64,000 nt of DNA from NCBI GenBank assembly GCA_949710005.1, contig OX453272.1:5022173-5086172 (forward strand). The letters are read 5' to 3'. Made by a program: the position numbers and the translations under genes. This DNA comes from Ricordea florida (taxonomy: Eukaryota > Cnidaria > Anthozoa > Corallimorpharia > Ricordeidae). Of the stretch, positions 10,361 through 64,000 are shown in pieces. The notes under the pieces are model-generated. The model was not told the DNA's origin. It searched no databases and saw nothing but the letters and a program-made list of their open reading frames with translations. Each line of letters begins with the position of its first letter. Within the stretch, counting starts at the first letter, position 1.

Positions 10361-10393
10361 TTACTACTACCACTACTACTACTACTATTACTA

Positions 10394-10431
<38 letters not shown>

Positions 10432-10466
10432 GCTACTGCTACTGCTTCTGCTACTACTACTGGTAG

Positions 10467-10501
<35 letters not shown>

Positions 10502-10558
10502 GTGCCAGTGCTACTGCTACTGCTACTGCTACTGCTACTGCTACTGCTACTGCTACTG

Positions 10559-10606
<48 letters not shown>

Positions 10607-10625
10607 ATAATAATAATAATAATAA
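10174..10625. repeat. Long trinucleotide microsatellite with alternating ACT and GCTACT blocks
   Basis: About 450 bases are made almost entirely of ACT units, interrupted by three blocks in which ACT alternates with GCT, and ending in AAT units. It produces long homopolymer reading frames on both strands (poly-Leu, poly-Thr, poly-Val) that are artefacts of the repeat. Confidence 0.95.
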
Positions 10626-39267: not shown

Positions 39268-42200
39268 TTATGACGTTACTGATTCACTGCTATCATCCTT
39301 CCCCTTGTATTTTTGTTTGCCATGGGTGAACGGCAAATATCGGTACTTGATCATATGCTGAAAAACACAAACAGAGAATTTTAAACCTGCCAGATACTAT
39401 ACACAACATTTCTAGGAGGCAAAAAGCTGTCCACATCTCAACTAACCAGGCTAGAACATGCATTTTTGTATTGACTGATTGCGTGAAAAAAACATATTGG
39501 AACTAAGTGTGTTTTTTTGTTTGGGTGCTGTAAATAAAGCTGGCAAGTTAAAGTAGTTGCACATTTCCAATGATTCTGGAACAATGTTTTTCAAACAACA
39601 AGCATGTCAGAACCAATTGAGTCAGTGTCAAGTTTATTGTGCAAGAGACGAAGAAACTCTTAGACTAGTCAAAGGTGCTGTTATTGCTCAGAAAATAAAA
39701 ACAAAAAACAGACAAAAAACATTCCTTGATAAACTGGAGACAGGACTGTCAGGTTACATCAATAAATGTCAGTTGTCATGGCAAAAAAGGGAGTGGTTAA
39801 ACCTACTGTAATATAATCAGAGCAGGTGGGAACAAAGGCGCTGGTTCATAAGAGCAGTGAATAATCCCTTTCTTACCTTAATCTGTCTTTTCATGGTGAT
39901 TATGAAGAGAACAATAAAATACATCACTAAGATCGGCCAGAAGACAGGAATGTTGAAAAACTCAAAACATGTGCAAATCATTGCAATAATAATGGCTCTT
40001 GTGGCACCATACCTGTGAAGTAAAGAAAAAAATATGTTCCACTTGAAAACTTTTTTAAAAAAGGACATTTATTACCGTATTCGCACCCCGACTTTTGACC
40101 ATATTTTACATACCTACATACATACTTTATTGGAACTCCCTTTAACAGGGCTTTTCAGTCACAATAAACTAACTATTGAAAAATACTAAAAACTTATTTA
40201 CAATAATAATTTAAATTTAAAATTCAATTAATTGTTATAAAACATATTCTTAAAAAGAGTCTTCTTAAAACTATTAATTTCTTTGATATTCTTAATGTTC
40301 TCAGCTAGCCCATTCCATTCCCTTGGACCCCGATAGGAAAACTCCCTTTGTCCTGTTGACAGTCTACATCGGGGAACCACAAAATTATTACATCCCCTTG
40401 TGTTCCTATTGTGAACTGCTGAACGTTTAACAAAATATTTAACTAAATAATCTGGAGCTAGACCATTTACACATTTAAATGCTAAAACTAAATCATTAAA
40501 TAAAACTTTCTCTGTAACATCTAACCATCTCAGAGATCTCCGACCCTGAGATATATGGTCAAACTTCCTTAACCCTAATACAACTCTGGCTGCAAAGTTC
40601 TGCACCAACTGTAGTTTGTGTAGATTACGTTTAGATGTGTTCCCCCACACTGAGGAACAATAAAACAATTTACTGAAAACGAAGCTATTTATAAGCAATA
40701 ATAGTGTTTTCTTGTCTAAGAGATGTTTAATTCTTCTGATATGTACCAACTGGTTCATGCAACTAGAAGCTGTCTTAGAGATATGTACATCATAAGTGAG
40801 ACATTGGTCAATATATACCCCTAGATCCTTGGCAAATTGAACTGGTGAAATAGTTTTGCCTAACATAGACAATGAAATAGGAGGTAGCTTCTTAATAAGT
40901 TGTGCTGAGCCAACAACCACTAGTTTTGTCTTGTCAGGGTTTATGAGTAGAGCATTTGTTGCGCACCATTTGCTGATATTCCTAAGATCTTGGTTTACAG
41001 CTGCCATAGCACTTGATGAAGCTGATACAGAAAATTTAAAGTACAATTGACTATCATCAACATACGCGGCAGCTTGACTGTAGGTAATAGCACTAATTAA
41101 ATCATTAATATAAATTGTAAAAAGCACTGGACCCAAGATTGATCCCTGAGGTACTCCATTTGTTAAAGGTAACATTTCTGAAACTGAATCTTCGTATCGT
41201 ACCCTTTGATATCTACTAGATAGATAGCTGCTAAACCAGGAAACTGCCGAAGCTTTAAGGCCAAGTTTTCGTAGTTTTTCTAACAATAGATTATGATTAA
41301 GACTGTCACAAGCTTTTGACATATCAAGCAGTACAAGTAACGAGGCTGATTTTTCGTCAATTGCTTTCAAAAGATTGTCTGAAACATTAATGAGGGCAGT
41401 TTCTGTCGAATGCATTTTCCTATTACCACTTTGGTAGAGCGACAGTTTATCATTCGTTGTTAAAAATTCCACAAACTGCTTGTGTGCCAGTCTCTCACTT
41501 ACTTTCGATAGAATGGGTAACAATGATATCGGTCTATTGTTAGCCAGTTCTTCTGAATTGTCTTCTTTAGGTACCGGTATCACCTCAGCAATTTTCCATG
41601 CTTTGGGAAAGGCAGCCATTTGAAACGAACCATTTACCAGTCTAGAGATCACAGGCGCGATGCAGTCACAACTGTCTTTCAGGACTCGAGCAGAGATTTT
41701 ATCATATCCTGACGCTTTGTTAGAAGCTAAACTCTTAATAGCAGACTTGACATCTGTTTCTTTTACATTTTGAAACTCAAATCCTTTTTGTTCAGCATGA
41801 AGGCCGGTTTCCATACTTTCCTCCCTAGGACCACATTCTTTATCGAAACCTTGTTCCTTTGTTAGCAAGTTCACTTTATAGGCAGTAAGTTCGCCTACTG
41901 ATGTGAAATACTTGTTGAATTTATTTGCCAACGTCTCATGGTCCTCCAAAGTACTTGGACGTTTAGCAACACCTCGAGACATGCATCGATTTAAGATCTT
42001 CCAAATGGCATTTGTATTTCCTCTGCTGTTAGCTATTTCGTTCCTTACATGGATTTTTTCAGCAAGCTTCAGTTCTCGTTTCACTTTTTGTCGAAAGAAG
42101 CGATATCCATTCCAGCATAGTCTGTCATTGGTTTGAATGGCTTTCTTATGCCAGCAGTCCCTGGTTTTCATGAGCTGCTTTATTTCAGGTGTTACGAACG

Positions 42201-45200
42201 GATTAGAGCGGGATTTGATCTTTATACGTTTGATAGGCGCATGCTGATCCAACACGTCTAAGAAGAGAGAATTAAATGTTTCCACTTGGGAATCGATGTC
42301 ATCAAAGAAGTGTACCATGTGCCACGGGACAAGAGAAAGGTCTTCGCAAAAGCTATCGGATATGTACCAAGAATAGCTTCTTACAGTAACATATTTGGCT
42401 TTAACTTTAGGGCACCTTATCCTCAATGTAACTTCAACTAAGTTGTGATCACTTATTGAGGACGCTACGACTGAGCAAGACTCCGCTAGGGTGGGGTCCG
42501 TACAAATAATGACATCAATCAGTGAGCGTTTCGTTTCTGTGATTCTAGTCGGTTCCTTCACCAATTGTGTCAGGTTGAAAGTAGCACAAAGTTCCCTCAA
42601 GGCTCGACTACCCACTGTGTCATCGAGAATGTTGCAATTTAGGTCACCCAGAATGATGATTTCATTGCCAAGCAGTAACATATCCAGTAAACTGCTTGAC
42701 ATACCATCGCTGAAAGTTAACGTAGCACTAGGTGGTCTATAAACAGTGCAAATAAGAATTGATTTACAGTGACGAACTTGGACTTTTATCCAGAGCTGTT
42801 GAAAATTTTCGACGCTAATTCCAGAGACATCCTTTATAAGTGTCGCTTTGAATGTATCTCTAATGTATACTGCAAGGCCGCCACCGGATTTATGTTCTCC
42901 CTGATCTTGGCGGAAGAATGCAAATCCCGGGATGTGCATTACTTGATTATCAACCGTCGAGTCAAGCCAAGTCAATTTTCTTGTAAAAAAATTCACGCAT
43001 TCTTAATAGCACAAAGGCCTGGCAAGTGCCGAGTACACCAAGATATTGTTATTTGTTTATATTAAAAGATTCATTGCGATAAGTAATCTAACATAGCATA
43101 CAACCTGTACAATCGATCGAACAAACAAAACTGTGTCAACTCGATCGCATGTAACTTCTTGTGTTTCCTATGTAGTGTTCAAGCTCAGTTGTAAGTAAAC
43201 GTAACTGATAAATTATTTGACAGAAGAATCCAATGTGAATCTCAAATCTAATTGAAGACACAAGAACACAAGACATGCGATCACTACTTTAGTGCACTTG
43301 TACACGCGTTGTCACACATATGTTGACGGAGATTCTGGCAATTCCACATGCGTGGATCATTTCTCATTTATGAAAAACAGTGAAAGCCCTCAGATTGTCT
43401 CTGAATATTTTATCGACTCAGTGCAGGGACCAAACTTCAAGACATTTGTTTCGCTCACGCACAAATTATTGTTACAGGTTGCTAAGGTTACTGAATGAAT
43501 CAAAGATGACAGCGGATAGTGTCAACTTGCATGAGAGTTTACACTGCATTTCCTATGCAATGTTTGATGTTCTTGGACTATGTTTTCGTTAGAAACCAAG
43601 CTAAGTTGTAAGCAAATGACAGAAAAACCCATGCTGAGTCGCAAATCTATTTCTAAACATACAGCACACGAGACATGTGAACGCTACTTGTACACGTGTT
43701 CTGTTAGATTCTACATATGTGGATCATTTCTCGGTTACGAGAAATGATCCACATATGTAGAAATGCTATATGCCTCCATATGTAGAAATGCTATATGCTT
43801 AAGCCTCCAGATTTAATGATTTATTAAGTCAGCGAGGTGTAAGGATCGGACTGATGCTTTCAAGCTTCAAAATGTTCGTTTCAGCAGCGATTGACTAAAA
43901 TATCAAAGCTCGATATCTGACCAAGCCTATACACTTGTGTTGTACAAAGAATTACGTGAAAACTATAAAGGGGTTTTCACTAAATCATATGAAGATTTTA
44001 GTTATACCGTGTACAGGCAGCACCCCCATTTAGTACAAAATTTATAAAAGTGTGACCTATACACGTGTGAATACGGTAACTCAATTTGTTACTTACTGGG
44101 TTAGGAACTTATGTAAGTGTATTACTAGCAAGCATGGCAAACACACACACAGACTGACTGTAAAATGAACAGGAAACTTGTATACATTTACTACAAAGAT
44201 GTATGTAAAAAATGAAACCAATTGTATATGCATTATCAACCAAGGGTGAGGTACAGTGTACAAGATGGCTGCATGCTGGCTGGGTTCTTTCAAGGCCTTT
44301 TTTTCTTGACCATGACACAGTCACAGTCAAAAAATGCAAAAAAAAAAAGATGCCAATATACAGCCATCTTGACAAACAAGCTTTGTCAATAAAGAATTTA
44401 TTATATGGTCGTTTTGTTTTCTTTTGTGGGACAAAGCAGGAAATCTTTAGCAGGCAAGATAGACCCACCTTGGCCACTCAGTGCAACAGGAAACAGGTGC
44501 TACTGGTGTAAACGTACAGTACTCTAAAACGGAATACACGTAAACTAAGTGTCTTTTTAAATCCTAGATACGTAGTTAACGATAAAAGCTCACCAGAATT
44601 TAAACTCTGGCAATCTTCTGATGAAAGGTCGAAACTCTTGGTCAATCTTAGTAGGAAGTTCAGGACCATCTTCCTCTACCAAAAAAAAGAGGAAATTTGA
44701 CATCAAATAATGTGCTCTACAATGGATACTGTTTACAATGTGGTTTGGTTCTTATTTCCATTGTCAAAATGTTACCATACATTGTCGCGCTGAAAAATAT
44801 TCACGACAATGCAAAGTCCAGGGAGGATAGAATTAAACAATACATGTACTTTACTTGCAGTTTATTTTGTAATAATATCACGGCATAATATTCCATATTA
44901 ATCACATGGTTACAGTACAGTTTACAGTATGTATATAACAGAATATTAACAGACACTCACCAGCACATTACAACAAGTTCAAATAAAATAAAGTCAAATG
45001 AAAATACACAAGAGATCTAACTAACTGGCATACAAAATAAGCTAATTAAGATACCGTATTTACCCCTGTATAATACGCGCCCATGTATAATACGCATTGC
45101 AAATTTGAACTGTAATTTCTTGGTAAAAAAGCAGTACTATATACAGGTAAGTGGAGACACAGAAGTGTAGTGGATAGCGTGTCTGACTTCCGAGTTTGGA

Positions 45201-51443: not shown

Positions 51444-54400
51444 CTAATCACTGCTTTGAGTGTTAATACCAGGCCAAAAGAACAGTTTTTTCCTTAATGT
51501 AGTTTCAGGTTGAGAAACTTGTTTAGAGCCAATTTCACCCATTTTGCTAACTCTATCATTCACCATTGTTAGCATACTGATGAGGTCTTCCTGTCCAGCA
51601 TATTCTTGAAATACTTCAACAATACAGCGGACAAAACGACTTCCCATCTCTGTGTTTCTGAATGCTGCATAGCCCCTTACAGTTGAATGAGCCACCAAAA
51701 TATCAGCATGTGCAGGGATGGTGTCCTTAAGATTAAACCTCCAATGCCTGGAACTGCTTTCATTGCTTTCTCGTGGTTGGTCATCACCTGTTGAAGGCTG
51801 AATTGGGGGAGGGTTTGGAGACTGAGGAGAATCTGCTACCACTCCAACATCTCGTTTCCTGCCCCTGCAGGCTTGAATAAAGAACAGCTTTGGTTTCCCT
51901 ATTAGATGCTGGCAACTTGAATTGCTAAACATGTCCCGGACCGTTTCAACATGCACTGTTCCACCATCACTACCATACAAAATGCCTTCCTCCCCATGAG
52001 TCATAAGCCACAACACAAAACAGTCGTAATTTTTGTGTTCTGGATCAGCAGCAGTATCATCTAATATTTTCAAAATCTGTTCTTTTGATTGATTTGTTTC
52101 TGTCTTTACCTTGAAGTCAAGTGCCTCAAACAAATCCTCAAGTTGCTCAACATCTCGCTGTGACCCTAACCGCACCTCAAGCTGCTCCTTCTTGGTGAGT
52201 TCACTTTCATATGTTTTTCCTGGCTCACTCTCAGAGCTGAATGTTTCATTGTTTATGATCAGAGCAATCCCCCTGGGTTTGGCAGTCATTTTATACACTA
52301 AATCTGACCCTGGGTGGTTACGGGCTGGAATTTTGTTCAAGTCTGTGGGTTCAACAAAACTTTCATAGTCAGATGCCTGACATTGTGGAGACCCTTGAAT
52401 GTCAGTATTTCCAAGACGAGGTGGTAACTCTTCGTGATGCTCTGAACTTGGCTTCTTGTTTGCCGTTTCTCCTTCATGTTCAACAGGTGTACCAGAGTCT
52501 ACATTGAGACACGTAAACATTAGAGGATGGCACGGTAAGAAGTTAATCTAATAAGCCCTGAGCTCAGTTCAGATTTACCTGCCTTTGCCCACTGTCACAG
52601 TAATGCTTATTGGACTTTTAATCCTGATGTTGGCTACATATACTTAAAACAAATTTCTGAACACAAATGTAACCTTTTAAAGGCTTAAACTTACTACTTT
52701 GTGAGGTCCTAATGCCTAGAATGGCATAAACAGTGTGAATTTTACTATTCCCATAGTTCACTGAAACACTTACAAACACAAACAAGTCAATGAAAAGATA
52801 TAGGGAAAATAAACCATCTGCTGGCTTAGTAATGGTCAGTAATTATAGTAAAAATGCTGAAGCCGTTGTTCATAGACTGATCCCTATTTTTGACTTTACT
52901 GACCTCCCAGACAGGACATACATAAATTTGTCGGATCAATATCAGTTTCTGGGCAACCAGGCACCTACCCCTCCCCTAAACCAACATCAACGCTGACTGT
53001 TTAACTCATTAAAACTTGTTGGATTAGGGGAGGGGTAGGTGCGCAGTTGCCCAGAAACTCATTTGTCTATATAGCAAAATGGACTGTGGTTGTTTCACCC
53101 AAGAGCCAGTTTGCTTCAATTTAAGTCATTTGCCTCAACCTTAATGGTCAATTTGCCTGAACAATTCGTCAGTTCTCCTGGAATATAATTTGTCAAAGTG
53201 TTATACCCAGGAAATACTTGCATGTGCGTTGGTTCTTTTTCATACAATTTACTATTGATGCGGTGAAGAATATTCTTTTTGTTACCAAGGATTTTGTTGT
53301 ATAAGAGGTTTGATAAAGCAAGGCTCCACTGTATCTCACCATGAAACAGTTAAAATGTTGGAACTGTCACGTACTTAAATCAAAACAGGTTTAATTCAGA
53401 GAAAGACCATGCCTGTCTAAATATGTGGATGGATAAACTTTAAACCTTAATGTTTGTCATAAGATTTCTTAGTTCTGCTGTTCCGTGTTGACTGGAGTTA
53501 AACAACTTTAAATAAGATGAATTGACTATTAAAGAAATTTATTTCTTATTTTTTATCAATGATATTGTGATTTCAAGGTCGCCTCTCCTATAAGCCTGGT
53601 GGTTTCTTAAGGTCTCCTCGCCTAACAACTACCAAAATGCTGTAATCTGTGAAATTCATTTTAATAATTTATGGCCAGTTACCAGCACAATCACAATGGT
53701 AAGGAAAGGACAAGAAGACTACTTTGACAACAGAGTGCAAGCACTATACCTTTATGCTGTGGTGGTAGCTCAATTTGCAGTCCACTAAAACTGAGAATGC
53801 TACCGATGCTATGGCCAGTAACAGGCACCTCTAGAAACAAAAAAGCTAATTTTCAATTAGTTTTTATGACTGCATAAAGACACTCTCAGTAACACAAGTA
53901 TGCCCTTGGCTCAGTCCCTAGATATCTCACTGACTAATGCCCACAGCACTAATGGTACAGTATCACCATAGTAAATCCTCTATTAAGCCACACAGTTGGC
54001 TTATTAACTTTTTTAAAGTACCTTTTGAGGATGGGTGGTTACATATTACATATTACAAATTCAAAATTATTTACGGACTAAATAAAACGAGAAATACCAA
54101 AAAAAGTAAAGTTAAAACGAAAAACTTCCATGGATAGACAAACCTTGTGAATGCAGATCTTCGTTTGCTACCGGTTGCTGTAACAGCTTGTACAAATGAG
54201 GCTGTGTTTTACTAAGAGCATTCACAAACGTTTGCATATTTTCACTGCCTGACCGGAGGATTTTTTCTAAAAGCTTTTCTGCCTTCTTCTTTCTCGTTTT
54301 CTCGCTCTTAACGTCGTCCATGTCGTCTTGATCAAATATTCCATCTTGAAACAAGTAACTCAAAACTTTTAAGGGTTCGAGATCTTTGAGAACGTCTAGG

Positions 54401-54444
54401 TAGTTTCTTTGTAGTCTAAAATGGTAAGGAATTGCCATGCTCAT
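51444..54444 (-). CDS. CARD-containing caspase, three exons
   Basis: Cysteine protease of the apoptosis or inflammation pathway, initiator type (caspase-2/-9 like layout). Coding exons (minus): 54444-54144, 53830-53750 and 52498-51444; 1437 bases, 478 residues, introns phase 1. Exon 1 encodes an N-terminal CARD of about 85 residues (DVLKDLEPLKVLSYLFQDGI, KKKAEKLLEKILRSG). The p20 domain starts near residue 200 (GIALIINNETF). The catalytic His is in LMTHGEEGILYGSDGG (about residue 295) and the Cys in FFIQACRG (about 338). An Asp-containing linker (GVVADSPQSP) precedes the p10 domain (HSTVRGYAAFRNTEMGSRFV). All catalytic residues are present. A second in-frame ATG lies two codons after the first. 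Assignment to caspase-2 or -9 would need a tree. Confidence 0.9.
52945..53058. mobile_element. Foldback MITE in caspase intron 2
   Basis: GTTTCTGGGCAACCAGGCAC followed by CTACCCCTCCCCTAA pairs with TTAGGGGAGGGGTAGGTGCG followed by CAGTTGCCCAGAAAC over about 35 bases, around a loop of about 40 bases. Confidence 0.75.
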
Positions 54445-55219
54445 ATAAATACAAAAAACGCATAACTTTCACATTCATAGTTAAGTCATTCAGTCAAGAG
54501 TATGATCACTTCCTTGGGAAATTCCCTACGATGCTTTCGGTTTGTTCGCAAACATATTTTCCTTTCCCATAAGTCTGTTCACGCGCTGTGAAGCAAAAAA
54601 TGTAGGGCCGCATTGTGTACTCACAAAACGGGAGATGATCTCTCACAGGACGTTTCGACAATTTTGCGGATAGCGATAAATTTCGCTGGTTTTTGGATCT
54701 GGAAAATACTGTGGATCTTTGGTCATTGTCTATCCTAAACTGCGTTAAGGTACCGACTCCTAACTGGCCCCAGCAACCCAAACATCCCCCACTCCTTCGG
54801 GGTCAAATTTGATACAACTTCCCTTCCCCCTTCCCCTCCCCGTCCTCTTTCCTTTTGTCCTCCCAACATTTTCCTAGCGTCTCCTCGCGCCTCAGTGTTT
54901 TTCGTTTTCCTCGCGCCACAGCTCTTGGAACGCCAGTTGCAGGCTAATTTTTGTGTCTACTGCGCTTGCGCAGAAGATACTAAAGCCATGAACATGAAAA
55001 CTGAAGAAAAAGTTTGTTAAAATCGATAATCCGTAGGTAATCAATAAATTATCGCACTTCAATTTCAACCAATCACAAGTGAAACAGAGCGATTAAATAT
55101 GTCCGAACATAAATCCATATAAACTCAAGTCATGGAACGATGTAAGTCAGTGCAGTCATTGTATGCTGTTCGTGCGTGCGGTGAAGACTTCAGAGATAGG
55201 AAAATGCCGATACTGAGCC
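54445..55219. other. Upstream region of the caspase gene, up to the virus-like block
   Basis: No coding exon is seen. A pyrimidine-rich stretch lies at about 54780-54870. Composition is ordinary until about 55200, where it turns AT-rich. Confidence 0.5.
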
Positions 55220-55303
55220 AAATCATAATTTAAAAATATATATAAATATATAAAATCATAATTTAAAAATATATAAATATATAAAATCATAATTTAAAAA
55301 TAA
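55220..55303. repeat. AT-rich direct repeats at the left edge of the virus-like block
   Basis: Two full units and a partial third unit of AAATCATAATTTAAAAATAT plus AT-rich filler, period 31-33 bases. They coincide with the change from host composition to the AT-rich, intronless block and may mark or lie near its end. A 26-codon ATG frame at 55306-55386 follows but is too short to call. Confidence 0.6.
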
Positions 55304-55599
55304 AAATGTTGAAATTCTTTAAAAAAGATTTATTCAAAGTTCTCCACCATAAAATTTATCCAAAGATTTTATCAAGATATTTTTAAAATATAAATGAATT
55401 ATTTAATTGAGAGTTAAAGAAAAGTAATGAAATATAAAATGGAAAATTTACAAGGATTATATTTAACACAATTGAAAAAAATTTCTAAAGAGTTGAAAAT
55501 TAAAGGTTATTATAGAATGAATAAAGAAGATTTAATCAAAGAGATGGAAAAATTTACAGATGAAGAGAGTATTAAGATAATCTCAAAAGTTACTATTAA

Positions 55600-57536
55600 C
55601 CCACTGAGCTCCAGACCTCAGAGCCCAGACCACCCCTTAAAATTCCAGAGGAAATGGCTGCCTCAATGAAAACACACACCACTGCCAAAATAATTGAAGA
55701 TTTCAATAACTTTTATTCAATCTACTGAAGGAAAACTTCACAAAGTTACTTCTTACATAATAAAGATTAACCTAAACAACTTCAATCCTTGACTTACGCA
55801 TTTTGCTTCCTTAAAAAAAATCTAATAGCTTGTGAACTCATTCAACATCCTGATGCAGGGTAAGTTTCTTGCAATGTGGTATCTAACTTTTCGAAAATTT
55901 TTCAGTTTTGCTTACTCTTGTTTGTACTGTTTGTTTATCAGAATCACATAAAAGGCCTTGCTTGAAATACTACATCATAAATCGGGTCATTTTTCTCTCA
56001 AAGAAGAAAGAAATCTGCAAGTTTTCTCACGCGGGCCAATTTTAAATTTGCCGCCATTGCTGACATCACAGCACGTCACAAGACGCAACTTCAAAAATTT
56101 ATTTTGCGACTCAAGAGTACTAAGAAACTCTACTTCTCACTTACATGAATAATTCCACTATCAACAAAGCAGATTCGTTAAATTTCAGTGATCATAAACA
56201 ATAAACTACCAAACAATATGAATTTAGTTGTTGTCTTCTTCCTCGCACAATGGACAACAAGCGAAGCGCGACATAAGTTACACGCACTCATAATTACACA
56301 GCCAAACGTGCCTATAACTACAAATAGTTAAATCATATCGATAAAAGCACACTTGAAATATTACATTATTTACAAATTTCCACCGTGCCATTCGGAAAAG
56401 CATGATTTATCACCGCGCATCTTGCGACACAAAGGAACACCACACTGTTCGCACGCGTAAGATGTCTCGAAGGTGCGGCCTTCACCTCGCTTTCTTCCAA
56501 CTTTGGCGCACATAGAACAAGCTTTCTTTCTGCCTTCCAGTTTGCCCAGAAAGTGCCCCTTAAGGTTTTCTTCGGTGGCAACTGTTTTTATTGCACGTTT
56601 TCCTGAGTTTGATGGCCGTTTATATCCATTGTAGAGATGTAAATATTTCCCTAGAGTCTCAAAGCGGTGCTTTGGGATAGTTTTCTTGAAGCCTTCCACT
56701 CCAATAAACTCGTCAGAATCCCAGTACATTTCAAGCTGGGGAAGTTCGTGGATACCAAAGAGAATATTGAGCCCGAGATATGCTGAAATTTCCGCTCGAG
56801 TTGTCGTGAACGTTTGATCCCCTTTCCAACGAGCATACGCAACAGTGCATCGGACGATTTCATCAATGTAAGCATCGTCGATAAAAACATTGAAGAAATC
56901 CTTGAAAGTCGCGTTGTCTCCGAGATCTCTGGTCGGGCCATGACGAATGGAAAATTGTTCAACATTAATTCCCTGCAATCTGCTGGACCACTGAAGAGCA
57001 GCTGGTTGGTTTTCTTCAGGCGTAGAGTCTTCATAGCTACTTTCATCGCTTTCTTCTTCTTCCTCGCTAGCATATAGCTCGACATCGGAATTGCTGCCCC
57101 TTTCTTGTGGCAGTAGATCAAAAAATTCTTTAATCTCTTCGTCCACATTGCGAAGCAAGTTTTGTTCTTGCCGTGTTTGACGAGCTTGCCGGATTTCGCC
57201 GATTTCTTCGATGGTAAAACCAGCGAATAATTCTTGCTCTTCATCGGATGAAACTCTGCTTTCATCAATTCTTCCAGAAGCCATGTCTAAAACGAAGATG
57301 CTTTTTGGAAAATTCGTGAAAAATCGTATACTGAACGTAAAATGGCGAGTTTGGTCTCAAATGAAAGTTTAATTTATGCACATCACGTCTCACTGCTTTC
57401 CAATTCCCAGGGGAGTGTTGTTTCCGAGCTACAGCCAATTAAAACGAGCCATTTTTGACAGGGCGCATGTGGGCGCATTGGAATTTCAGAGGGGTTTTGT
57501 TTCCGGGCGCATGAGGGCGCATCGGAAGTCAATGGG
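55600..57536. mobile_element. piggyBac-type DNA transposon, 1937 bp
   Basis: TTAA occurs directly on both sides (55596-55599 and 57537-57540). The ends CCCACTGAGCTCC and, on the opposite strand, CCCATTGACTTCC are short inverted repeats. Near the right end GGGCGCAT is repeated four times, as in subterminal binding sites. The only gene is an internally deleted transposase on the minus strand. The sharp ends, clean duplication and intact frame of the host gene suggest a fairly recent insertion. Confidence 0.9.
56370..57284 (-). CDS. piggyBac transposase derivative lacking the catalytic core, 304 aa
   Basis: Residues 1-115 are the acidic N-terminal region (EEEEESDESSYEDSTPEENQ). About 120-225 match the start of the piggyBac transposase domain (TRAEISAYLGLNILFGIHEL, IPKHRFETLGKYLHLYN). 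The sequence then passes directly to the C-terminal cysteine-rich DNA-binding domain (CSMCAKVGRKRGEGR, YACEQCGVPLC, CFSEWH). The intervening segment of roughly 250-300 residues with the three catalytic Asp residues is missing, and the frame is kept. Full-length family members have about 560-600 residues. The product could not cut DNA; it might still bind transposon ends or other transposase subunits. Confidence 0.8.
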   Translation of the reverse strand: MASGRIDESRVSSDEEQELFAGFTIEEIGEIRQARQTRQEQNLLRNVDEEIKEFFDLLPQERGSNSDVELYASEEEEESDESSYEDSTPEENQPAALQWSSRLQGINVEQFSIRHGPTRDLGDNATFKDFFNVFIDDAYIDEIVRCTVAYARWKGDQTFTTTRAEISAYLGLNILFGIHELPQLEMYWDSDEFIGVEGFKKTIPKHRFETLGKYLHLYNGYKRPSNSGKRAIKTVATEENLKGHFLGKLEGRKKACSMCAKVGRKRGEGRTFETSYACEQCGVPLCRKMRGDKSCFSEWHGGNL

Positions 57537-57840
57537 TTAATGATAAATATATTTGTATTCATGGAAAGTGTAAATATTACTGTAAAGAATGTGGCGGATC
57601 TTATATATGCGAACATAATAAAATTAAGTATCAATGTAGAGAGTGTAAAGGGTCTAATATTTGTAAACACAATAAAAATAAGTATCGTTGTAAAGAATGT
57701 GGAGGATCACAAATATGCGAACATAATAAACAAAAACAACAATGTAAAGAATGTGGAGGATCACAAATATGTGAACATGGTAAACAAAAAGCTTCTTGTA
57801 AGGAATGTCGAAAAATAAAATTGAAATTATGATTTAAAAA

Positions 57841-58350
57841 ATGTTAAAAATGTTATTTGAACAATATAATGAAAACAGAATTCTTATTTTTGAGTATTTT
57901 AATGAAAAAGAACTGGGTTTTTATGATTTTATAGAGTCAATCAATGAAGATTTGTTAAAAAAGATCTCAAAAAATCGTGGTTTTATTATTGAAGATGAAG
58001 ATTATTGTTGTTGTTTAAATTATTATGTTAAGAATGATAATATTTTTTGTGGTGAATGTATTTTAGATTTTGAAGAGGGTTTGATGTTAAATGAAGAAGA
58101 GCTTGAATTAGTAATTTTTTATTGTGGTAATGATGATGATAAGATAGAATATAATATTAATAATTTTATTATTTATTCATCTGTGATTACAATAGAAAAA
58201 GATGAACATAAGGTATTACATAAAAAGAAATTCTTTAAAGATTTACATGATGAACTAATACCTATAGCATGGAATCCGGATAGGTATATGGATTGGTTTC
58301 TTGATTTTGAGGAGTTAAGGGATTTGAAAGAACGTTGGGAGAAAAATTAA
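57841..58350 (+). CDS. Unknown 169-aa acidic protein with AWNPxR motif
   Basis: An intronless ORF eight bases after the Cys/His-repeat gene, in the same direction and possibly co-transcribed. It is rich in Glu, Asp, Ile and Tyr. A cluster CCCLNYYVKND and a later FCGECILDFEEG could bind metal. Near the C terminus, IPIAWNPDRYMDWFLDFEEL resembles the AWHPxR...WC motif seen in many unassigned proteins of large DNA viruses. That resemblance is from memory and unverified. Function is unknown. Confidence 0.7.
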   Translation: MLKMLFEQYNENRILIFEYFNEKELGFYDFIESINEDLLKKISKNRGFIIEDEDYCCCLNYYVKNDNIFCGECILDFEEGLMLNEEELELVIFYCGNDDDKIEYNINNFIIYSSVITIEKDEHKVLHKKKFFKDLHDELIPIAWNPDRYMDWFLDFEELRDLKERWEKN

Positions 58351-58411
58351 GTTATATAACCCTTACTTGAGTTATATAACAAAATACCTTAAGGACCAGC
58401 TACGATGAAAT
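58351..58411. other. Convergent intergenic gap with GTTATATAAC repeats
   Basis: The palindromic decamer GTTATATAAC occurs twice, 27 bases apart (58351-58360 and 58371-58380), followed by CCTTAAGG. It lies between the ends of convergent genes, so it may serve 3'-end formation. Confidence 0.4.
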
Positions 58412-59047
58412 TTATCTAAATCTTAAACTTAAAGTTATGTGAGAACCCTTCAGATCAAGTTTTTTCCATTCAATATCTAAGATGCTTAAATCAAAGTGGT
58501 TTATGAGACTCTCATATTTTTGAACCGGAATTGATGGATATTCCTGTGAGGGTATGTTAGCAAGTAGGTGTGATGGTGAGAGTTTTACAAGTTCTCCATA
58601 TTTAGTGTTATTCATATATGATGACTTATTATCCACTATACTACACAAAAGTCTCAATGGTTCCTTAATCTGTATATTTATGAGGTATAATTTACCCGGA
58701 TTTATAATTTCTGGCACTCCTAAACCAACTTGCAACCCTCTAGTAAGTTTAATGTTGAAGTTCTTATTTGAATATAGATAGTCAACAGTATCAGTCTCAA
58801 TTATTGTTATCTTCGCCCTATCAGTATCATTAAGAAAGATTGATTGAATATTACGCAGCGAATATGTACCAGGCTGTATTATTATGAGGGGTTGATTCTT
58901 ATCATTGAACAATATCTGTTGATCCTTGAAATTAATCAATCTTTTGGTTTTTATATTACAATCCAGGAGTTGTATCTCCCTAAGATTTTTCAGCGGAGGA
59001 TCTAAATAAATCCTAGTTTCTGAATCATACATGGTAATACTCAACAT
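58412..59047 (-). CDS. Beta-rich 211-aa protein, candidate jelly-roll (minor capsid-like)
   Basis: An intronless ORF. The sequence is mostly alternating short beta-like segments. The start reads LSITMYDSETRIYLDPPLKN followed by an LREIQLLDCNI segment, and a central IIQPGTYSLRNIQ segment has the PG-x-Y-T/S-L pattern frequent in virion jelly-roll and spike proteins. It ends in ITLSLRFR, like the last strand of a jelly roll. No signal peptide or membrane segment. A TTTAAAGAT box lies 24 bases upstream of the ATG. I do not recognise the family; the capsid idea rests on strand pattern and context only. Confidence 0.65.
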   Translation of the reverse strand: MLSITMYDSETRIYLDPPLKNLREIQLLDCNIKTKRLINFKDQQILFNDKNQPLIIIQPGTYSLRNIQSIFLNDTDRAKITIIETDTVDYLYSNKNFNIKLTRGLQVGLGVPEIINPGKLYLINIQIKEPLRLLCSIVDNKSSYMNNTKYGELVKLSPSHLLANIPSQEYPSIPVQKYESLINHFDLSILDIEWKKLDLKGSHITLSLRFR

Positions 59048-59070
59048 TTTGTTTTGATTACACCATATTC

Positions 59071-59079
59071 ATCTTTAAA
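59071..59079 (-). promoter_or_regulatory. Upstream box TTTAAAGAT of the 211-aa gene
   Basis: TTTAAAGAT on the minus strand, 24 bases before the ATG at 59047, preceded by A/T. The same box precedes five other genes of the block. Confidence 0.6.
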
Positions 59080-59298
59080 TTTCTATAATCAAAACCTTAA
59101 CAAAAATTTGCATTGACGTAATCACATTCCTGAGCGACGTTAGAAACCGACCTTTTTGAAGTAAACATAAAATCTACTTTTCGATTACAAATCCACTTTA
59201 CATTTTGCTTGTTGCTATGTCGTAAAAGTATGCAATCTATTGTTCTACACGTGAACACTAATTTACAAACAATGATAATCACGTGAAATGGTCATGAA

Positions 59299-60882
59299 CT
59301 ACCGAAATAGATACCACGCTAAGCCACCAGCGACAACCATAAATGCTAATATATTCTTTTCATGCTGCGTTGAGTCAATATTATTTTCCTGTTTCGTTGA
59401 GTCTGTTTGTGTAGAGTCTTTTTTCATCGGTGGTTTTGATTCTTTCTCAACTATATGAGGTAACTTTACCTTTGAAGATCCCATGTTATGACTTATTCCA
59501 ACCTGTTTTGCTTCAGTGTTTAGGGAATTATTCACTCCAAAATTCATATCATTACTCGCTTTCATAAGTTTGTTGTTAAAACCAGTCACGCTTTCAGTGT
59601 TGATTATCGTATTACTTGGCATTAACCATACACCAGGAGCAATAGCTAAATCGAGCCGCAATTTTGCTTCTTGTACAGCTAATTGATATCTTTGGATAGA
59701 ACTAGAAATGTCATTCTCGATCACACTACTTTCAAATAAAGATAAGAATTCTTGTTGAGTCTCGATCGCCCCACCACCATTACCATAAATCGAATTTCTA
59801 GTGTTGACTTGTGCACCCAATATACAGTAAACAAAAGCTTCAGCGGATCGATTCAATCTACCAAGTCCAGATTTAGTGAGTCCATGACCACTTGTTGGGA
59901 TAAACCAAGCATATTTAAAATCAACAAAGTCATCATTACGTATAAATGAGATTAGATTACCCTTTTCTTTCTTACCTCCTTCATCAGCGAATTTACCACC
60001 TTCACCGGGCCATTGATCTGCTTCATGATCGTAATTTCTTACAATATGCACATTTTGATATCCCCCACCTTTTCCATGATATCCAGAACCATAATCAAGG
60101 AATATATCTCCTAATCCTCCGTTTCTACCACCTTTCCATCTAAAGTCAGCCAAAGGCTGGGACCCACTCCGCGGAAAGTCAGAATTATTACTAACCCCAA
60201 ATTCAGCACACAATCTTTGATATGCTACTTTATTGTATGGATTGTTGTTTATTACAAAGGGTTGCTCATCAGGTAAGGGAAGACTTAATTCATATAATAT
60301 CCTCCTTATTGTGAAATACACATGAAACTTTATAAAACTACTCACTACTTTAGGGTAATTTAGACTTTCAAAAGGACTTATACCACAACCAGATGTTGCA
60401 CACCAAACTGCAAAGTTAAGTTGTTGAGGCCAATAATTCATATCTGGTGCATTCAACCATTTTCTACTCTGTTTTCCAAATTTGAAAGTCACAACTTGTG
60501 ATGTAAATATGTTTCTCATCTTTGTTGTAAATTTCTTCGTATTTGATACATATATATCCTGTTCAGTCAACATTTTTGTAATATCACTTGAAAAGTCATC
60601 AAAATCAATAGCGGGTATTGGATAAGATTGATTTGTTAATGTTAAACTCTTGGGGAATGAACTCAATTCTACATCATCCAGTCCTAAATCTTTCCATAAA
60701 AGTTTTTTCAAACGGGGCGATAGGTCATCAGTCCATGTTTTTCCAGTGGGGTCATCATTAGACATTATTGTTATACCATTCACTTTCCACTTAATGTACC
60801 CTCCATAAGGATCAGCTACAACTTCAAATTGACCTGTATCAGCCTTTGGGTACATATTTCTGAAATCATTGTATAATCCCAT
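59299..60882 (-). CDS. Unknown 527-aa protein with C-terminal membrane anchor
   Basis: This is the largest intact product of the virus-like block. It starts MGLYNDFRNMYPKADTGQ. It has a mixed alpha/beta body with aromatic-rich stretches (PQQLNFAVWCATSGCGI), a glycine-rich, probably exposed segment (GYHGKGGGYQNVHI, PGEGGKFADEGGKK) and a helical part (QRYQLAVQEAKLRLDLAIA). A low-complexity Ser/Thr/Gln/Lys linker then leads to a single C-terminal membrane segment (ILAFMVVAGGLAWYLF) followed by Arg. The layout suits a surface or structural protein held by a tail anchor. I recognise no family. A TTTAAAAGT box lies 27 bases before the ATG. Confidence 0.75.
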   Translation of the reverse strand: MGLYNDFRNMYPKADTGQFEVVADPYGGYIKWKVNGITIMSNDDPTGKTWTDDLSPRLKKLLWKDLGLDDVELSSFPKSLTLTNQSYPIPAIDFDDFSSDITKMLTEQDIYVSNTKKFTTKMRNIFTSQVVTFKFGKQSRKWLNAPDMNYWPQQLNFAVWCATSGCGISPFESLNYPKVVSSFIKFHVYFTIRRILYELSLPLPDEQPFVINNNPYNKVAYQRLCAEFGVSNNSDFPRSGSQPLADFRWKGGRNGGLGDIFLDYGSGYHGKGGGYQNVHIVRNYDHEADQWPGEGGKFADEGGKKEKGNLISFIRNDDFVDFKYAWFIPTSGHGLTKSGLGRLNRSAEAFVYCILGAQVNTRNSIYGNGGGAIETQQEFLSLFESSVIENDISSSIQRYQLAVQEAKLRLDLAIAPGVWLMPSNTIINTESVTGFNNKLMKASNDMNFGVNNSLNTEAKQVGISHNMGSSKVKLPHIVEKESKPPMKKDSTQTDSTKQENNIDSTQHEKNILAFMVVAGGLAWYLFR

Positions 60883-60908
60883 CTTATTATTTACGTTGAT
60901 AACATGTT

Positions 60909-60917
60909 ACTTTTAAA
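60909..60917 (-). promoter_or_regulatory. Upstream box TTTAAAAGT of the 527-aa gene
   Basis: A variant of the shared box, 27 bases before the ATG at 60882. Confidence 0.5.
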
Positions 60918-61002
60918 TCATCTATGGTTTATTTCTAATACCGTTCTTTTCTAATACCAGCAAAACAATTACATCCCACAGGAGTTCTTTCATATGAAAT
61001 TT

Positions 61003-61632
61003 TCAGCGTTCTCGACCGGTTAGATCTTTTAATATTTCCGCTCGAACCTCTGTTCTTATCTGATTCATATTTAAATTTTTTTCAGTATCTTTCCGAGTTT
61101 TTTGACGGATTTCTAGTTTTAGTTTTTCAAACTTTTCCACCTCTGATAAAATTAAAGAAAATTCTTGATCAGAGATAGCGTTATCTTTTAGTGCCTTTGA
61201 AACCAAGTCGTGAATTGTATTTACTTTTGCTTTTGCTAGAGAAACTGTCTGTTCATGTTTACTAACTTTATGTGAAAGTCTTTTAGAAGCTGTACCAAAT
61301 CCAACCGATATTCCACCACAAACACCACCGACAACACCTAATGGGATACCAACAACAGCACCAAAACCAGTAAGAGAGGTACCCAATCCACTTGCAGATA
61401 GGATAACTGAAAACACCCCACTACTAACACTGATTTTTGTAAATATTCCTCTCGCTCTATTGTATTTTTTCCTAACATCCTCGTAATGTTTTATTTCCTT
61501 TTGAAGATTATTTAGTACTTCACATGACTTTTGCAGTCTGAAATTATTTGGATCACCATTCATAGGTAATTGTGGATAAATCGAGCTTTGCTCGGGACCG
61601 GCCACACCGTAAATTCTATTGTAGTCTTCCAT
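61003..61632 (-). CDS. Unknown 209-aa membrane protein with Gly-rich helical hairpin
   Basis: The N terminus is polar. A predicted helical stretch (EVLNNLQKEIKHYEDVRKKY) precedes two closely spaced hydrophobic segments rich in Gly, Ser and Val (SSGVFSVILSASGLG, GFGAVVGIPLGVVGGVCGGI) at about residues 70-110. A second long charged helical region follows (LSHKVSKHEQTVSLAKAKVN to the end). Coiled coil, Gly-rich hairpin, coiled coil is reminiscent of membrane-inserting or pore-type proteins, but no family is recognised. The shared TTTAAAGAT box lies 26 bases before the ATG. Confidence 0.7.
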   Translation of the reverse strand: MEDYNRIYGVAGPEQSSIYPQLPMNGDPNNFRLQKSCEVLNNLQKEIKHYEDVRKKYNRARGIFTKISVSSGVFSVILSASGLGTSLTGFGAVVGIPLGVVGGVCGGISVGFGTASKRLSHKVSKHEQTVSLAKAKVNTIHDLVSKALKDNAISDQEFSLILSEVEKFEKLKLEIRQKTRKDTEKNLNMNQIRTEVRAEILKDLTGRER

Positions 61633-61657
61633 ATTGTATTTTACTGATCAACACGAT

Positions 61658-61666
61658 ATCTTTAAA
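61658..61666 (-). promoter_or_regulatory. Upstream box TTTAAAGAT of the 209-aa gene
   Basis: An exact TTTAAAGAT, 26 bases before the ATG at 61632, followed by TTGATCAGTAAAA as in the next genes. Confidence 0.6.
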
Positions 61667-61684
61667 TTGATACGAACAGATTTG

Positions 61685-62647
61685 TTACCGTCTCTTATTT
61701 TTAAATTGGTCCACAAAATATAGAACCACAGCTAATATCAATAACCAAGCATTCTTACCTAAAAATCCAATAACCTCACCAGCTGTTTTGAATAAAAAGC
61801 TAACTATTGCACCAACCATTCCTGGTAATATTTCACCAAGTTTTTTACCTATAGTTTTCAAACCATTACCGACACCTTTACCCAATGTTTTTAGTCCATT
61901 AGAAAGATTAGAAACGATAACACCTATTATTATACCAACAGCACTCATAACAGCGAAGACTGTAAAACCATACTTTTTGAAAATAGCCTTCACACGATCA
62001 CGTAATGACATTCTATTTTGTATTCTATCTCTCTCACTCTCAATGTTTGATATATCATTCTCTTCATCAGTAATTTCTCTATTTAGATTTTCAAGCTCGT
62101 TATTTTCCTCAGGTGTCTTAAGCGGCTTATCCTCAAGGAATTTTACCTTCTCAATCTTTTTAGTTAGTGTTTCTTTTTTCTTAGTAATTTCAATATCCAT
62201 ATCTTCAACAACATCTTCTGCTCTTTTACCTAAAGCATTTTTTAATTGATCAGGAAGTTTTTTACTTTTAGTTTTAAAATTTTTTAATTCACCATCCAAA
62301 AGAACATAATCAGCCGCTTTTCCTCTGTTTAATTTAACGGCAGGTAATTTTATTCCTTCTCCGATATCTTTTAAAAATGTTATAAAACTTTTAAATTTTG
62401 CACGTGGATAGATCCTTTTGATTTCCTCTTCAGCTTCTTCTTGTTCTTCCATCTTAAAACCTAAAAAGGGTTGTTTTTCACCACCAAATGAAGTTTCTTG
62501 TTCATAATCATCAGGGTAAGTTGGAATAGCGGTGGATGTATTTGGAGATAAATAAATTGTTTCATCATTACCACTACCACCAACATCTTTTGATTTATTT
62601 AGTTCAGTTGGATCAATATCTTCTGGTAAATATCCTCCTTCTGCCAT
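61685..62647 (-). CDS. Unknown 320-aa protein with coiled coil and C-terminal membrane segments
   Basis: The N-terminal ~80 residues are acidic and disordered. About 110-225 is highly charged and helical, with a long coiled coil (RDRIQNRMSLRDRVKAIFKK at its end). Three hydrophobic segments follow: VFAVMSAVGIIIGVIVSNLS, PGMVGAIVSFLFKTAGEVI and AWLLILAVVLYFVDQF. A short basic tail KNKRR ends the protein. It is probably a multi-pass membrane protein with a large internal domain. A TTTAAAGAT box lies 24 bases upstream. No family is recognised. Confidence 0.7.
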   Translation of the reverse strand: MAEGGYLPEDIDPTELNKSKDVGGSGNDETIYLSPNTSTAIPTYPDDYEQETSFGGEKQPFLGFKMEEQEEAEEEIKRIYPRAKFKSFITFLKDIGEGIKLPAVKLNRGKAADYVLLDGELKNFKTKSKKLPDQLKNALGKRAEDVVEDMDIEITKKKETLTKKIEKVKFLEDKPLKTPEENNELENLNREITDEENDISNIESERDRIQNRMSLRDRVKAIFKKYGFTVFAVMSAVGIIIGVIVSNLSNGLKTLGKGVGNGLKTIGKKLGEILPGMVGAIVSFLFKTAGEVIGFLGKNAWLLILAVVLYFVDQFKNKRR

Positions 62648-62670
62648 GATTTTTTACCAATTAGTAAGAA

Positions 62671-62679
62671 ATCTTTAAA
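62671..62679 (-). promoter_or_regulatory. Upstream box TTTAAAGAT of the 320-aa gene
   Basis: It reads TTTAAAGATTTCTTACTAAT on the minus strand, then a T/A-rich tract to the ATG; 24 bases from box to ATG. The same extended string stands before the 72-aa gene. Confidence 0.65.
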
Positions 62680-62689
62680 CGTGCAAAGC

Positions 62690-62725
62690 ACACCGCTGCA
62701 GAGCAGTAGACCCTTTAGGGTCGCG
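62690..62725. terminator. Cluster of three short GC-rich hairpins
   Basis: CTGCAGAGCAG, ACCCTTTAGGGT and the neighbouring GTGCAAAGCAC (62681-62691) are short palindromes packed in an AT-rich gap. They lie between the end of the 139-aa gene and the box of the 320-aa gene. Hairpins at gene ends are used for 3'-end formation in some large DNA viruses; that role here is inference. Confidence 0.4.
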
Positions 62726-62748
62726 AAGCAAATTAATCACACACTTTA

Positions 62749-63168
62749 CTAAAAGAATTTACTAGCTATATAACCTAATGATAACATACCACCGCCTACA
62801 TATAACATTTCACCCGTCTTTTGATTATCACTGGGTGTATAATAATCCGCAAAGCGGGGCTCTTTCAGAGTTTCAGAGAATTTTGGTTCGTGCATTTGAC
62901 TATAAAATTTCAAAGCTTCATCGGTATTAGAAATATTTTTTAATGCTTGATATTTAGCATCCTTTTGTTGTACTTTCCAATCAATGAGATTCTGTCTTTT
63001 TTCTTGATATGCAGCATAATCTTTTTGATATTTTTCTAATGCCTTATCGTGTCGTATTCTTTCCACATCTGTTTTATCACCTGATAGATATTTTGCAAGA
63101 TATGAGCCGCCAACAAATGTAGTTGCATTCAATATAGCTCCTCCAACCATCATTGCTATTGTTGCCAT
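62749..63168 (-). CDS. Unknown 139-aa protein with hydrophobic ends and central charged helix
   Basis: The N terminus MATIAMMVGGAILNATTFVG is a hydrophobic helix, and the C terminus GEMLYVGGGMLSLGYIASKF is a second one. Between them lies a charged, Gln/Lys-rich helical stretch (EKYQKDYAAYQEKRQNLIDW). It may be a double-anchored small membrane protein. The upstream box is the diverged ATTAAGGAT, 28 bases before the ATG. No family is recognised. Confidence 0.7.
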   Translation of the reverse strand: MATIAMMVGGAILNATTFVGGSYLAKYLSGDKTDVERIRHDKALEKYQKDYAAYQEKRQNLIDWKVQQKDAKYQALKNISNTDEALKFYSQMHEPKFSETLKEPRFADYYTPSDNQKTGEMLYVGGGMLSLGYIASKFF

Positions 63169-63195
63169 GTTTCTTCGCTTCGCACAGGTCTATAA

Positions 63196-63204
63196 ATCCT
63201 TAAT
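63196..63204 (-). promoter_or_regulatory. Diverged upstream box ATTAAGGAT of the 139-aa gene
   Basis: The weakest of the six boxes, at the expected position 28 bases before the ATG at 63168. Confidence 0.35.
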
Positions 63205-63258
63205 TTGAGGTTCCTCCCTCGCTTCGCTCAGTTCGGTAGAATCAATCGAATATTGGCC

Positions 63259-63271
63259 CCGGCTAAGCCGG
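63259..63271. terminator. Hairpin CCGGCTTAGCCGG overlapping the stop of the 72-aa gene
   Basis: A perfect 5-bp stem with a 3-base loop covers the TAG stop at 63263-63265 and the bases after it. It is GC-rich within an AT-rich context. A similar hairpin, AGCC GACA GGCT, lies at 63530-63541 after the next gene upstream. Confidence 0.4.
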
Positions 63272-63481
63272 TAATATCTTTTGATCCTCTAAATATGTTT
63301 TTAGATACATACTACCTGACAATACAGCGACCCATTTAGCATAGTTTGTAATACTTGAGGATGGATCGTTCATAAATGATTCTTTCATAGCCTTTTTAGC
63401 TACATAACCAACACCAGCTGCTAATCCGATAAGGACTGCAGAATCAGTAACAGTTTTCACAAGTTTGTTTTCGTTTGACAT
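63263..63481 (-). CDS. Unknown 72-aa small membrane protein
   Basis: A short Lys/Asn-containing N terminus, then a hydrophobic helix (VLIGLAAGVGYVAKK), then a second weaker one (YAKWVAVLSGSMYLKTYL), ending in a polar tail. It has a strong upstream box and the same 3' hairpin type as its neighbours, which supports its being real despite the small size. No family is recognised. Confidence 0.65.
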   Translation of the reverse strand: MSNENKLVKTVTDSAVLIGLAAGVGYVAKKAMKESFMNDPSSSITNYAKWVAVLSGSMYLKTYLEDQKILPA

Positions 63482-63506
63482 GATTTTTTTACTACATCAG
63501 TAAGAA

Positions 63507-63515
63507 ATCTTTAGA
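63507..63515 (-). promoter_or_regulatory. Upstream box TCTAAAGAT of the 72-aa gene
   Basis: TCTAAAGATTTCTTACTGAT, 26 bases before the ATG at 63481. It is nearly identical over 20 bases to the box region of the 320-aa gene. Confidence 0.6.
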
Positions 63516-63597
63516 CCGATTATATCTGAAGCCGACAGGCTTTAATCTCTTAGCAGGTCCGTATATGAAACTACTTATTTCATCTTTAGATTCGTAC

Positions 63598-64000
63598 TTA
63601 TAACATTCCTATTTTAAGTGGAGCTGGTCCTGTGGGCCGTGGTTGTGGTGTAGGAATCTTTGTAGGTTGTGGTCTTTGGAGAACTTGTGATACCGTAGGA
63701 CAAGCGGGTATTCTGTTTTCCTTCGGGTCTTTCTTATAATATCTCATAAACATGTCAAATGCTGTAAACCCTATTCCAACAATGGATAATACAGTTGTAA
63801 AAGATAGCTCTGAAAGCCATGCTTTTGATTCACTCTCTGTATTTTTATTTTCCTTTTGCTCCGCGGCCCGTAGGGTCTCTTCTTCCTGTTTAATTTGCTC
63901 CTCAGCTCGTAGGGTCTCTCTTGCTAATGCTTCTTTTGCTTTTTTATTATATTCAGCTAATTTCTTACCAGCAGCGACTTTTTTAGGATCTTTCTCTTTC
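63598..64000 (-). CDS. Partial unknown protein, C-terminal 133 residues, one membrane segment
   Basis: The frame is open from the window end to a TAA at 63598-63600; the start lies beyond the window. The visible part begins with a Lys/Glu/Ala-rich coiled coil that includes two similar ETLRAEEQ/ETLRAAEQ units. One membrane segment follows (FTTVLSIVGIGFTAFDMFM), then a Pro/Gln-rich tail (PQPTKIPTPQPRPTGPAP). The layout, coiled coil then single anchor, resembles the other membrane proteins of the block. A hairpin at 63530-63541 lies after its stop. Confidence 0.7.
   Translation of the reverse strand, partial: KEKDPKKVAAGKKLAEYNKKAKEALARETLRAEEQIKQEEETLRAAEQKENKNTESESKAWLSELSFTTVLSIVGIGFTAFDMFMRYYKKDPKENRIPACPTVSQVLQRPQPTKIPTPQPRPTGPAPLKIGML

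Follow-up and report, generated by a model that had tools for sequence, protein, structure and literature searches.

A gene block beside a caspase gene of Ricordea florida is very probably the left half of an endogenous Polinton/Maverick virus

Genes and boundaries of the element

The window analysed here is a stretch of 64,000 nucleotides from the corallimorpharian Ricordea florida (C1:5022173-5086172), which lies in a chromosome-scale contig, C1 (48.6 Mb); the whole genome comprises 537.8 Mb and 48 contigs. Its right end holds a block of densely packed genes that is almost certainly the left half of a complete endogenous Polinton/Maverick (Polintoviricetes) virus. The terminal inverted repeats (TIRs), target duplication, capsid genes, packaging ATPase, integrase, motifs of a type-B DNA polymerase (PolB), and many related copies are the basis of this assignment. 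The next 20 kb to the right of the window was read as two separate pieces; L031 denotes C1:5085973-5095972, and all other coordinates without a prefix are window positions.

The block contains nine genes: two on the plus strand, one of them broken, converge at 58350/58412 on six complete minus-strand genes plus one minus-strand gene that is cut by the window end (Table 1). A preliminary description, made from the letters of the window, had reported nine dense genes with converging transcription, an abrupt change of composition, and many membrane-type products, and these observations were borne out. The complete genes encode proteins of 527, 320, 211, 209, 169, 139, and 72 residues, and hydrophobic segments were found in the 209-, 320-, 139-, 72-, and 527-residue proteins and in the product of the cut gene. 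Open reading frames (ORFs) cover 0.81 of positions 59290-63990, compared with a maximum of 0.63 and a median of 0.12 in 100 host stretches and with a highest value of 0.26 among 200 mononucleotide shuffles. Judged as open frames, the genes appear to be free of introns, as had been proposed. The GC content, determined in 50-bp steps, falls at the left end from 0.50 at 55150 to 0.22 at 55200 and 0.04 at 55250; it is 0.28 over 57540-59060 and 0.35 over 59060-64000, the latter resembling the lower host windows. Host-like composition resumes past L031:8750.

The block itself is real, but its start had been placed at 55220, where an AT-rich tandem repeat of 31-33-bp units begins inside the left TIR; the true left end is at 55192. 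The two TIRs (253 bp, one mismatch) read AGAGATAGG...CCTATCTCT with the ends 5'-AG...CT-3', and ACTTC stands directly outside both. AG/CT termini are typical of Polinton/Maverick elements, whose usual target duplication is 6 bp; the duplication at the one insertion examined here is 5 bp. The element spans C1:5077364-5094700 (17,337 bp), including a 1.94-kb remnant of a piggyBac-type transposon. Without this remnant, which takes up 1,937 bp together with one copy of TTAA, the polinton is about 15.4 kb long. Because the left and right TIRs differ by one mismatch per 253 bp, the sequence points to a recent insertion. The insertion point lies approximately 0.75 kb upstream of the ATG of a host CARD exon, with a caspase adjoining.

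The remnant was assigned to piggyBac by the DDE_Tnp_1_7 match of its transposase, the TTAA on both sides, and the matching inverted ends. The transposase covers positions 4-99 of the 349 of DDE_Tnp_1_7, followed by a zinc finger, and most of the catalytic domain is missing. The remnant separates a Rho_N piece from a Cys-repeat piece of the broken plus-strand gene. These two pieces are 6 bases apart in nine of ten TIR-paired relatives, and therefore the nine relatives lack the piggyBac insertion of the window copy; the Rho_N piece was unmatched in the tenth. In addition, an in-frame stop divides the terminal-protein part from PolB in the window copy (L031:7129-7200 = C1:5093101-5093172). The window copy is no longer intact, with piggyBac in one gene and a stop in the PolB frame. 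The 169-residue protein matched in six of the ten related elements (33-46% identity) and had no match in four.

Table 1. Features of the polinton in window and L031 coordinates
Feature	Position	Strand	Basis or remark
Left target duplication, ACTTC, 5 bp	55187..55191	.	right copy L031:8729-8733
Left TIR, 253 bp	55192..55444	+	1 mismatch to right TIR
Broken gene, piece 1: Rho_N domain	55427..55599	+	PF07498, 1.1e-06, above cut-off; start inside TIR
piggyBac-type remnant	55600..57536	.	TTAA at 55596-55599 and 57537-57540; inverted ends CCCA[C/T]TGA
piggyBac transposase, internally deleted, 304 aa	56370..57284	-	DDE_Tnp_1_7, 2.7e-20; zf-Tnp_2, 1.7e-06
Broken gene, piece 2: about four CKECGG-type Cys/His repeats	57542..57832	+	no Pfam family above cut-off
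169-aa protein	57841..58350	+	ORF
Penton (predicted), single jelly-roll vertex protein, 211 aa	58412..59047	-	fold; 60 homologues
TTTAAAGAT box	59071..59079	-	before penton gene
527-aa conserved protein, C-terminal hydrophobic segment	59299..60882	-	ORF, homologues
209-aa protein, two hydrophobic segments	61003..61632	-	ORF
Further TTTAAAGAT boxes	61658-61666, 62671-62679	-	
320-aa protein, two hydrophobic segments and highly charged part	61685..62647	-	ORF
139-aa protein, N-terminal hydrophobic segment	62749..63168	-	ORF
Degenerate box forms	before 527-aa and 139-aa genes	-	
72-aa small membrane-type protein	63263..63481	-	ORF, hydrophobic segment
TCTAAAGAT box	63507-63515	-	
Gene cut by window end, about 179 aa by coordinates, hydrophobic segment	63598..64000, start L031:337	-	
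206-aa protein	L031:309-926	-	ORF
Packaging ATPase	L031:1034-1654	-	Pox_A32 profile
Major capsid protein	L031:1687-2919	-	Capsid_N profile
Integrase	L031:2954-3967	+	rve profile
PolB	L031:3931-7128	-	motifs
Terminal-protein part (presumed), 431 aa	L031:7201-8493	-	position
Right TIR	ends L031:8728 = C1:5094700		inverted match to left TIR

Hallmark proteins

The preliminary description took the block for the left part of an inserted element resembling a polinton or adintovirus, which agrees with the present result. Two of its further statements, that no hallmark gene lies in the visible 8.8 kb and that the class of the element is undefined, perhaps undescribed, are not borne out. By its predicted fold, the 211-residue protein inside the block is a penton, a single jelly-roll protein of the kind described as conserved among polintons (PMC4028283, excerpt). 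In Foldseek searches, the best match of the predicted fold was a protein of "MELD virus sp." in BFVD (8.3e-09) and the mavirus penton, 6g41, in the PDB (1.1e-07). The alignment for the fold prediction contained 28 of the 60 listed homologues. The other hallmark genes lie just beyond the window edge. A search to the right for the major capsid protein (MCP), packaging ATPase, protease, PolB, integrase, and TIR had been proposed, and all of these except the protease were recognised. The ATPase is of the FtsK/A32 type (Pox_A32, PF04665, 2.6e-11), the integrase matches rve (PF00665, 6.5e-09, 36.4 bits with a cut-off of 32.6), and the MCP, a protein of 411 residues, matches Capsid_N (PF16903, 3.1e-05, 24.1 bits). 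The genes for MCP and integrase point away from each other across a gap of just 34 bases (L031:2920-2953).

PolB, a protein of 1066 residues, shows the motifs exo I (183), exo II (349), exo III (562), A, B (802), and C (898) in this order and carries an endonuclease-VII-like insert. Motif A, DLDANNLYG, was read by eye, the scripted pattern having missed it. The identification of PolB rests on these motifs of the family, because neither the Pfam polymerase families nor PDB sequences matched. The 431-residue part preceding PolB is presumably the terminal protein; the name follows from its position, and its profile matches are weak.

Upstream box

The common upstream box of the preliminary description was also recovered. 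TTTAAAGAT, with two mismatches at most, is located 23-27 nt before the ATG in all six complete minus-strand genes of the window, three times exactly. Among control ATGs, the same criterion was satisfied by 2 of the 113 others on the minus strand of the block, by 1 of the 74 on its plus strand, and by 43 of 1,897 in host sequence. The test is to some extent circular, because the consensus was derived from the same six genes. Beyond the window edge, an exact TTTAAAGAT stands 26 nt before the MCP gene, in the gap towards the integrase gene or at the edge of that gap; the 206-residue protein gene has the box with one mismatch at 22 nt, and the ATPase gene has a weak form with two mismatches at 20 nt. 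No clear box was seen before PolB, the terminal-protein part, or the cut gene, and none was found before either plus-strand gene of the window. We infer that TTTAAAGAT may be a late-type promoter of virion genes.

Copies in the genome

The genome search with the TIR gave 56 matches (40 of 63 candidates were scored), and the 40 main ones form 16 pairs in opposite orientation plus eight singles. Eleven of the 16 pairs are spaced at 14.9-15.7 kb; the others are at 16.8, 17.3 (the window copy), 20.0, 30.5, and 32.5 kb. For PolB, 43 places out of 6,382 candidates were scored and yielded 49 matches, and a PolB match is enclosed by 15 of the 16 TIR pairs when the coordinates are compared by hand. At 30 of the 43 places the open PolB frame is listed as 1,400 residues or longer, with an inner stop in at least three of the 30; for the window copy the listed length is 1,089 residues. 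The 527-residue protein gave 82 scored matches among 6,011 first-look candidates, 77 of which have no inner stop. By the same manual comparison, just one of these 82 best places, the window itself, falls inside any of the 16 TIR pairs.

Two sets of relatives were compared with the window: set A, the 29 best loci of the 527-residue protein besides the window with 1.5 kb on each side, and set B, ten of the 16 TIR pairs. The order of the 209-, 527-, and 211-residue protein genes is retained in 20 of 29 (set A) and 7 of 10 (set B). Full-length matches to the penton occur in the same proportions (20/29 and 7/10); the remainder are partial, with approximately 40% identity in the three of set B. Where the penton start of a related copy was matched, the upstream box with at most one mismatch precedes it in 14 of 20 cases in set A and in 6 of 7 in set B. 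In set A, the median identity to the window is 90% for the 527-residue protein and 63% for the Cys-repeat piece (26 of 29 matched, 16 in full); in set B, the values are 81% and 92%, respectively, with both matched in all ten. Set A was picked by the 527-residue match and set B by the TIR, and the identities in each lean towards the picking part. Moreover, the Cys repeats may align out of register, and the flanks of set A mostly miss the Rho_N piece (6 of 29 matched) and in part the Cys-repeat piece. The capsid side and the terminal side have different nearest relatives, which suggests that the capsid side may have been exchanged between subfamilies by recombination. The near-absence of the best 527-residue places from the TIR pairs (the window alone, of 82) is unaffected by these biases.

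Against 11 of the 29 copies of set A, the median ratio of nonsynonymous to synonymous divergence (dN/dS) was 0.11 for the 527-residue protein gene and 0.12 for the penton gene, with median dS values of 0.39 and 0.29, respectively. The low ratios therefore indicate purifying selection on diverging lineages of both genes.

The 527-residue protein family

The 527-residue protein has 884 matches among public proteins, and the penton has 60. Between the 120 listed homologues of the former and the 60 of the latter, 11 contigs could be paired, by equal size only (a jittered control gave a mean of 0.14 and a maximum of 3); this coincidence supports linkage of the two genes. Across 12 loci, namely the window and the 11 size-paired contigs, with one of two penton entries used for two contigs, the divergences of the two proteins are correlated with r = 0.53, a value reached by 56 of 5,000 permutations. 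Homologues of the 527-residue protein (e.g. P0017) also occur on very long contigs of up to 1,121,608 bases. With a midpoint root, the homologues fall into two deep groups, one of which has an N-terminal extension of approximately 60 residues.

Neither the 527- nor the 211-residue family has a noteworthy Pfam match, and a sequence search of solved structures gave nothing useful for either protein. In IMG/VR, no relative was found for the 527-residue protein and its alignments, the penton alignments, the Cys-repeat piece, or the 169- and 320-residue proteins. None of the window proteins could be named convincingly from PHROGs or NCBIfam.

Neighbouring features of the window

Directly left of the polinton, caspase and CARD exons lie on the minus strand at 51447-54468, with profile matches of 3.6e-55 and 1.2e-16, respectively. 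The closest solved structure to the caspase is 6wi4, an entry that a study of caspases from stony corals mentions a single time (PMC7586219, excerpt); the match makes a coral host likely. A 924-residue open frame on the minus strand at 40231-43002 resembles, as judged by eye, a LINE-type retroelement protein, and a long tract of short-unit repeats at 10023-10737 is open in several frames.

Interpretation and rival explanations

Several results weigh against the assignment to the Polinton/Maverick class. The full-length superposition of the penton on that of mavirus has a high root-mean-square deviation (7.9 Å over 198 residues), and the Capsid_N score of the MCP is barely above the cut-off of 24. 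PolB was not matched by any type-B polymerase family of Pfam, either as a whole (E <=1) or as two pieces (E <=10), and the PDB sequence search with PolB gave nothing useful. No Ulp1/adenain-type protease was recognised by profile among the ORFs scanned, which were those of at least 72 residues, the cut gene being scanned in part. Structure prediction, which had been proposed for the unassigned proteins, yielded the penton fold for the 211-residue protein; that of the 527-residue protein, from an alignment of 34 of the 120 listed homologues, was of low confidence (mean predicted local distance difference test score, 56.9) and had no structural match of note. We nevertheless consider the Polinton/Maverick assignment very probable in view of the features listed at the outset.

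An element devoid of hallmark genes and a fragment of an endogenous giant virus (Nucleocytoviricota) are two readings that were set aside on the evidence of the penton fold and of the genes to the right of the window. The Rho_N/Cys-repeat gene and the A32-type ATPase would fit such a virus, as would the Pox_A32 and Capsid_N profiles and the Foldseek matches of the penton to Megaviridae and klosneuvirus proteins. A large genome without polinton-type closed ends would be expected, but paired TIRs with a target duplication close the element at 17,337 bp, 13 of the 16 pairs measure 14.9-17.4 kb, and an rve integrase is present, so that a giant-virus origin is now highly improbable. A chimeric assembly, in which host sequence was joined to DNA of a free virus or of a bacterium, seems scarcely conceivable: it found no support, although the 38 of 40 main TIR matches elsewhere in the genome could in principle mislead an assembler. 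The 48.6-Mb contig, the matching TIRs and target duplication, the piggyBac remnant inside the element and its absence from the same place in nine of ten relatives, and the return of host-like composition beyond the right end all speak against it. The low dN/dS and the site upstream of the CARD exon and caspase might be taken to indicate an intronless host gene cluster or a domesticated element, for example for caspase regulation. This we regard as very improbable, since many dispersed copies exist, the TIRs are near-identical, the window copy carries two disrupted genes, and the low dN/dS may instead reflect selection in replicating lineages.

The rival with the most in its favour is a separate polinton-related lineage. 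Such a lineage would share the genes for replication, integration, and capsid with polintons but, having more membrane-type proteins and lacking the Ulp1 protease, would count as a variant and not as an ordinary polinton. The failure to recognise a protease in the scanned ORFs, the lack of noteworthy Pfam matches or IMG/VR relatives for the 527- and 211-residue families, and the position of cnidarian MCPs outside the main Maverick-Polinton cluster (PMC10120064, excerpt) agree with this possibility. The unassigned ORFs are small divergent proteins, however, and are weak ground for calling a protease absent; moreover, a polinton of the coral Stylophora is already in print (PMC11071308, excerpt). 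We therefore think a separate lineage somewhat unlikely, and the "new class" of the preliminary description is not supported.

If the element is a polinton, it would have been inserted upstream of the CARD exon by its own rve integrase, and the terminal-protein part, located ahead of PolB in one and the same frame, would serve to prime its replication. The minus-strand genes with TTTAAAGAT would then constitute a late, virion-building set with very short leaders, comprising the MCP, the penton, the membrane-type proteins, and the 527-residue protein as a membrane-anchored virion part, and the particles may have an inner membrane. A bolder version, in which the Ulp1 protease was lost or replaced, virions are built with the enlarged membrane-type set and a tail-anchored 527-residue protein of new fold, germ-line replication is ongoing, and capsid-side modules are exchanged between subfamilies, is in our view doubtful as a whole, more so than the separate lineage.

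What had been an undefined element can now be delimited clearly as a virus family within a single chromosome-scale genome. It is of interest for its copy number, for the unexplained 527-residue family, for a protease that went unrecognised, and for a probable exchange of modules. With 16 TIR pairs, 77 of 82 copies free of stops, near-identical TIRs, and signs of module exchange, particle formation in living corals becomes testable, and so does the role of the common unnamed family with its 884 matches.

Comparison with known systems

No description of this polinton family was found in the main texts of the open-licence papers searched. Maverick-class repeats make up 1.41, 5.20, and 6.74% of three stony-coral genomes (PMC12005156, excerpt); those values refer to a RepeatMasker class, whereas one family is described here gene by gene. 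The penton fold is common to the window element and to mavirus and the virophages (Maveriviricetes), for which marker profiles of hexon, ATPase, and protease are established (PMC9952930, excerpt), and 6g41 is its best PDB match. A virophage is disfavoured by the animal host and by a PolB that is long and bears exonuclease motifs. The adintoviruses and MELD viruses (PMC11071296, excerpt) resemble the element in PolB and integrase, and the best BFVD match of the penton belongs to a MELD virus.

The closest comparison, made by description, is with the polinton of Stylophora pistillata, the "Stylophora coral adintovirus", in the excerpted text of PMC11071308. For polintons, that text lists a Ulp1/adenain-type protease, whereas none was recognised in the window element. 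The split between terminal protein and PolB is given there as gene organisation for Stylophora, whereas in the window copy it is an in-frame stop; the published split may merit the same stop check. Homing endonucleases inserted in polinton PolBs are described in the same source, and in both elements PolB follows a terminal-protein part and contains an endonuclease domain as an insert. Both also possess TIRs, an rve integrase, a packaging ATPase, an MCP, a penton, and an animal, probably coral, host. The window polinton is ordinary in kind and belongs to a class already known from corals.

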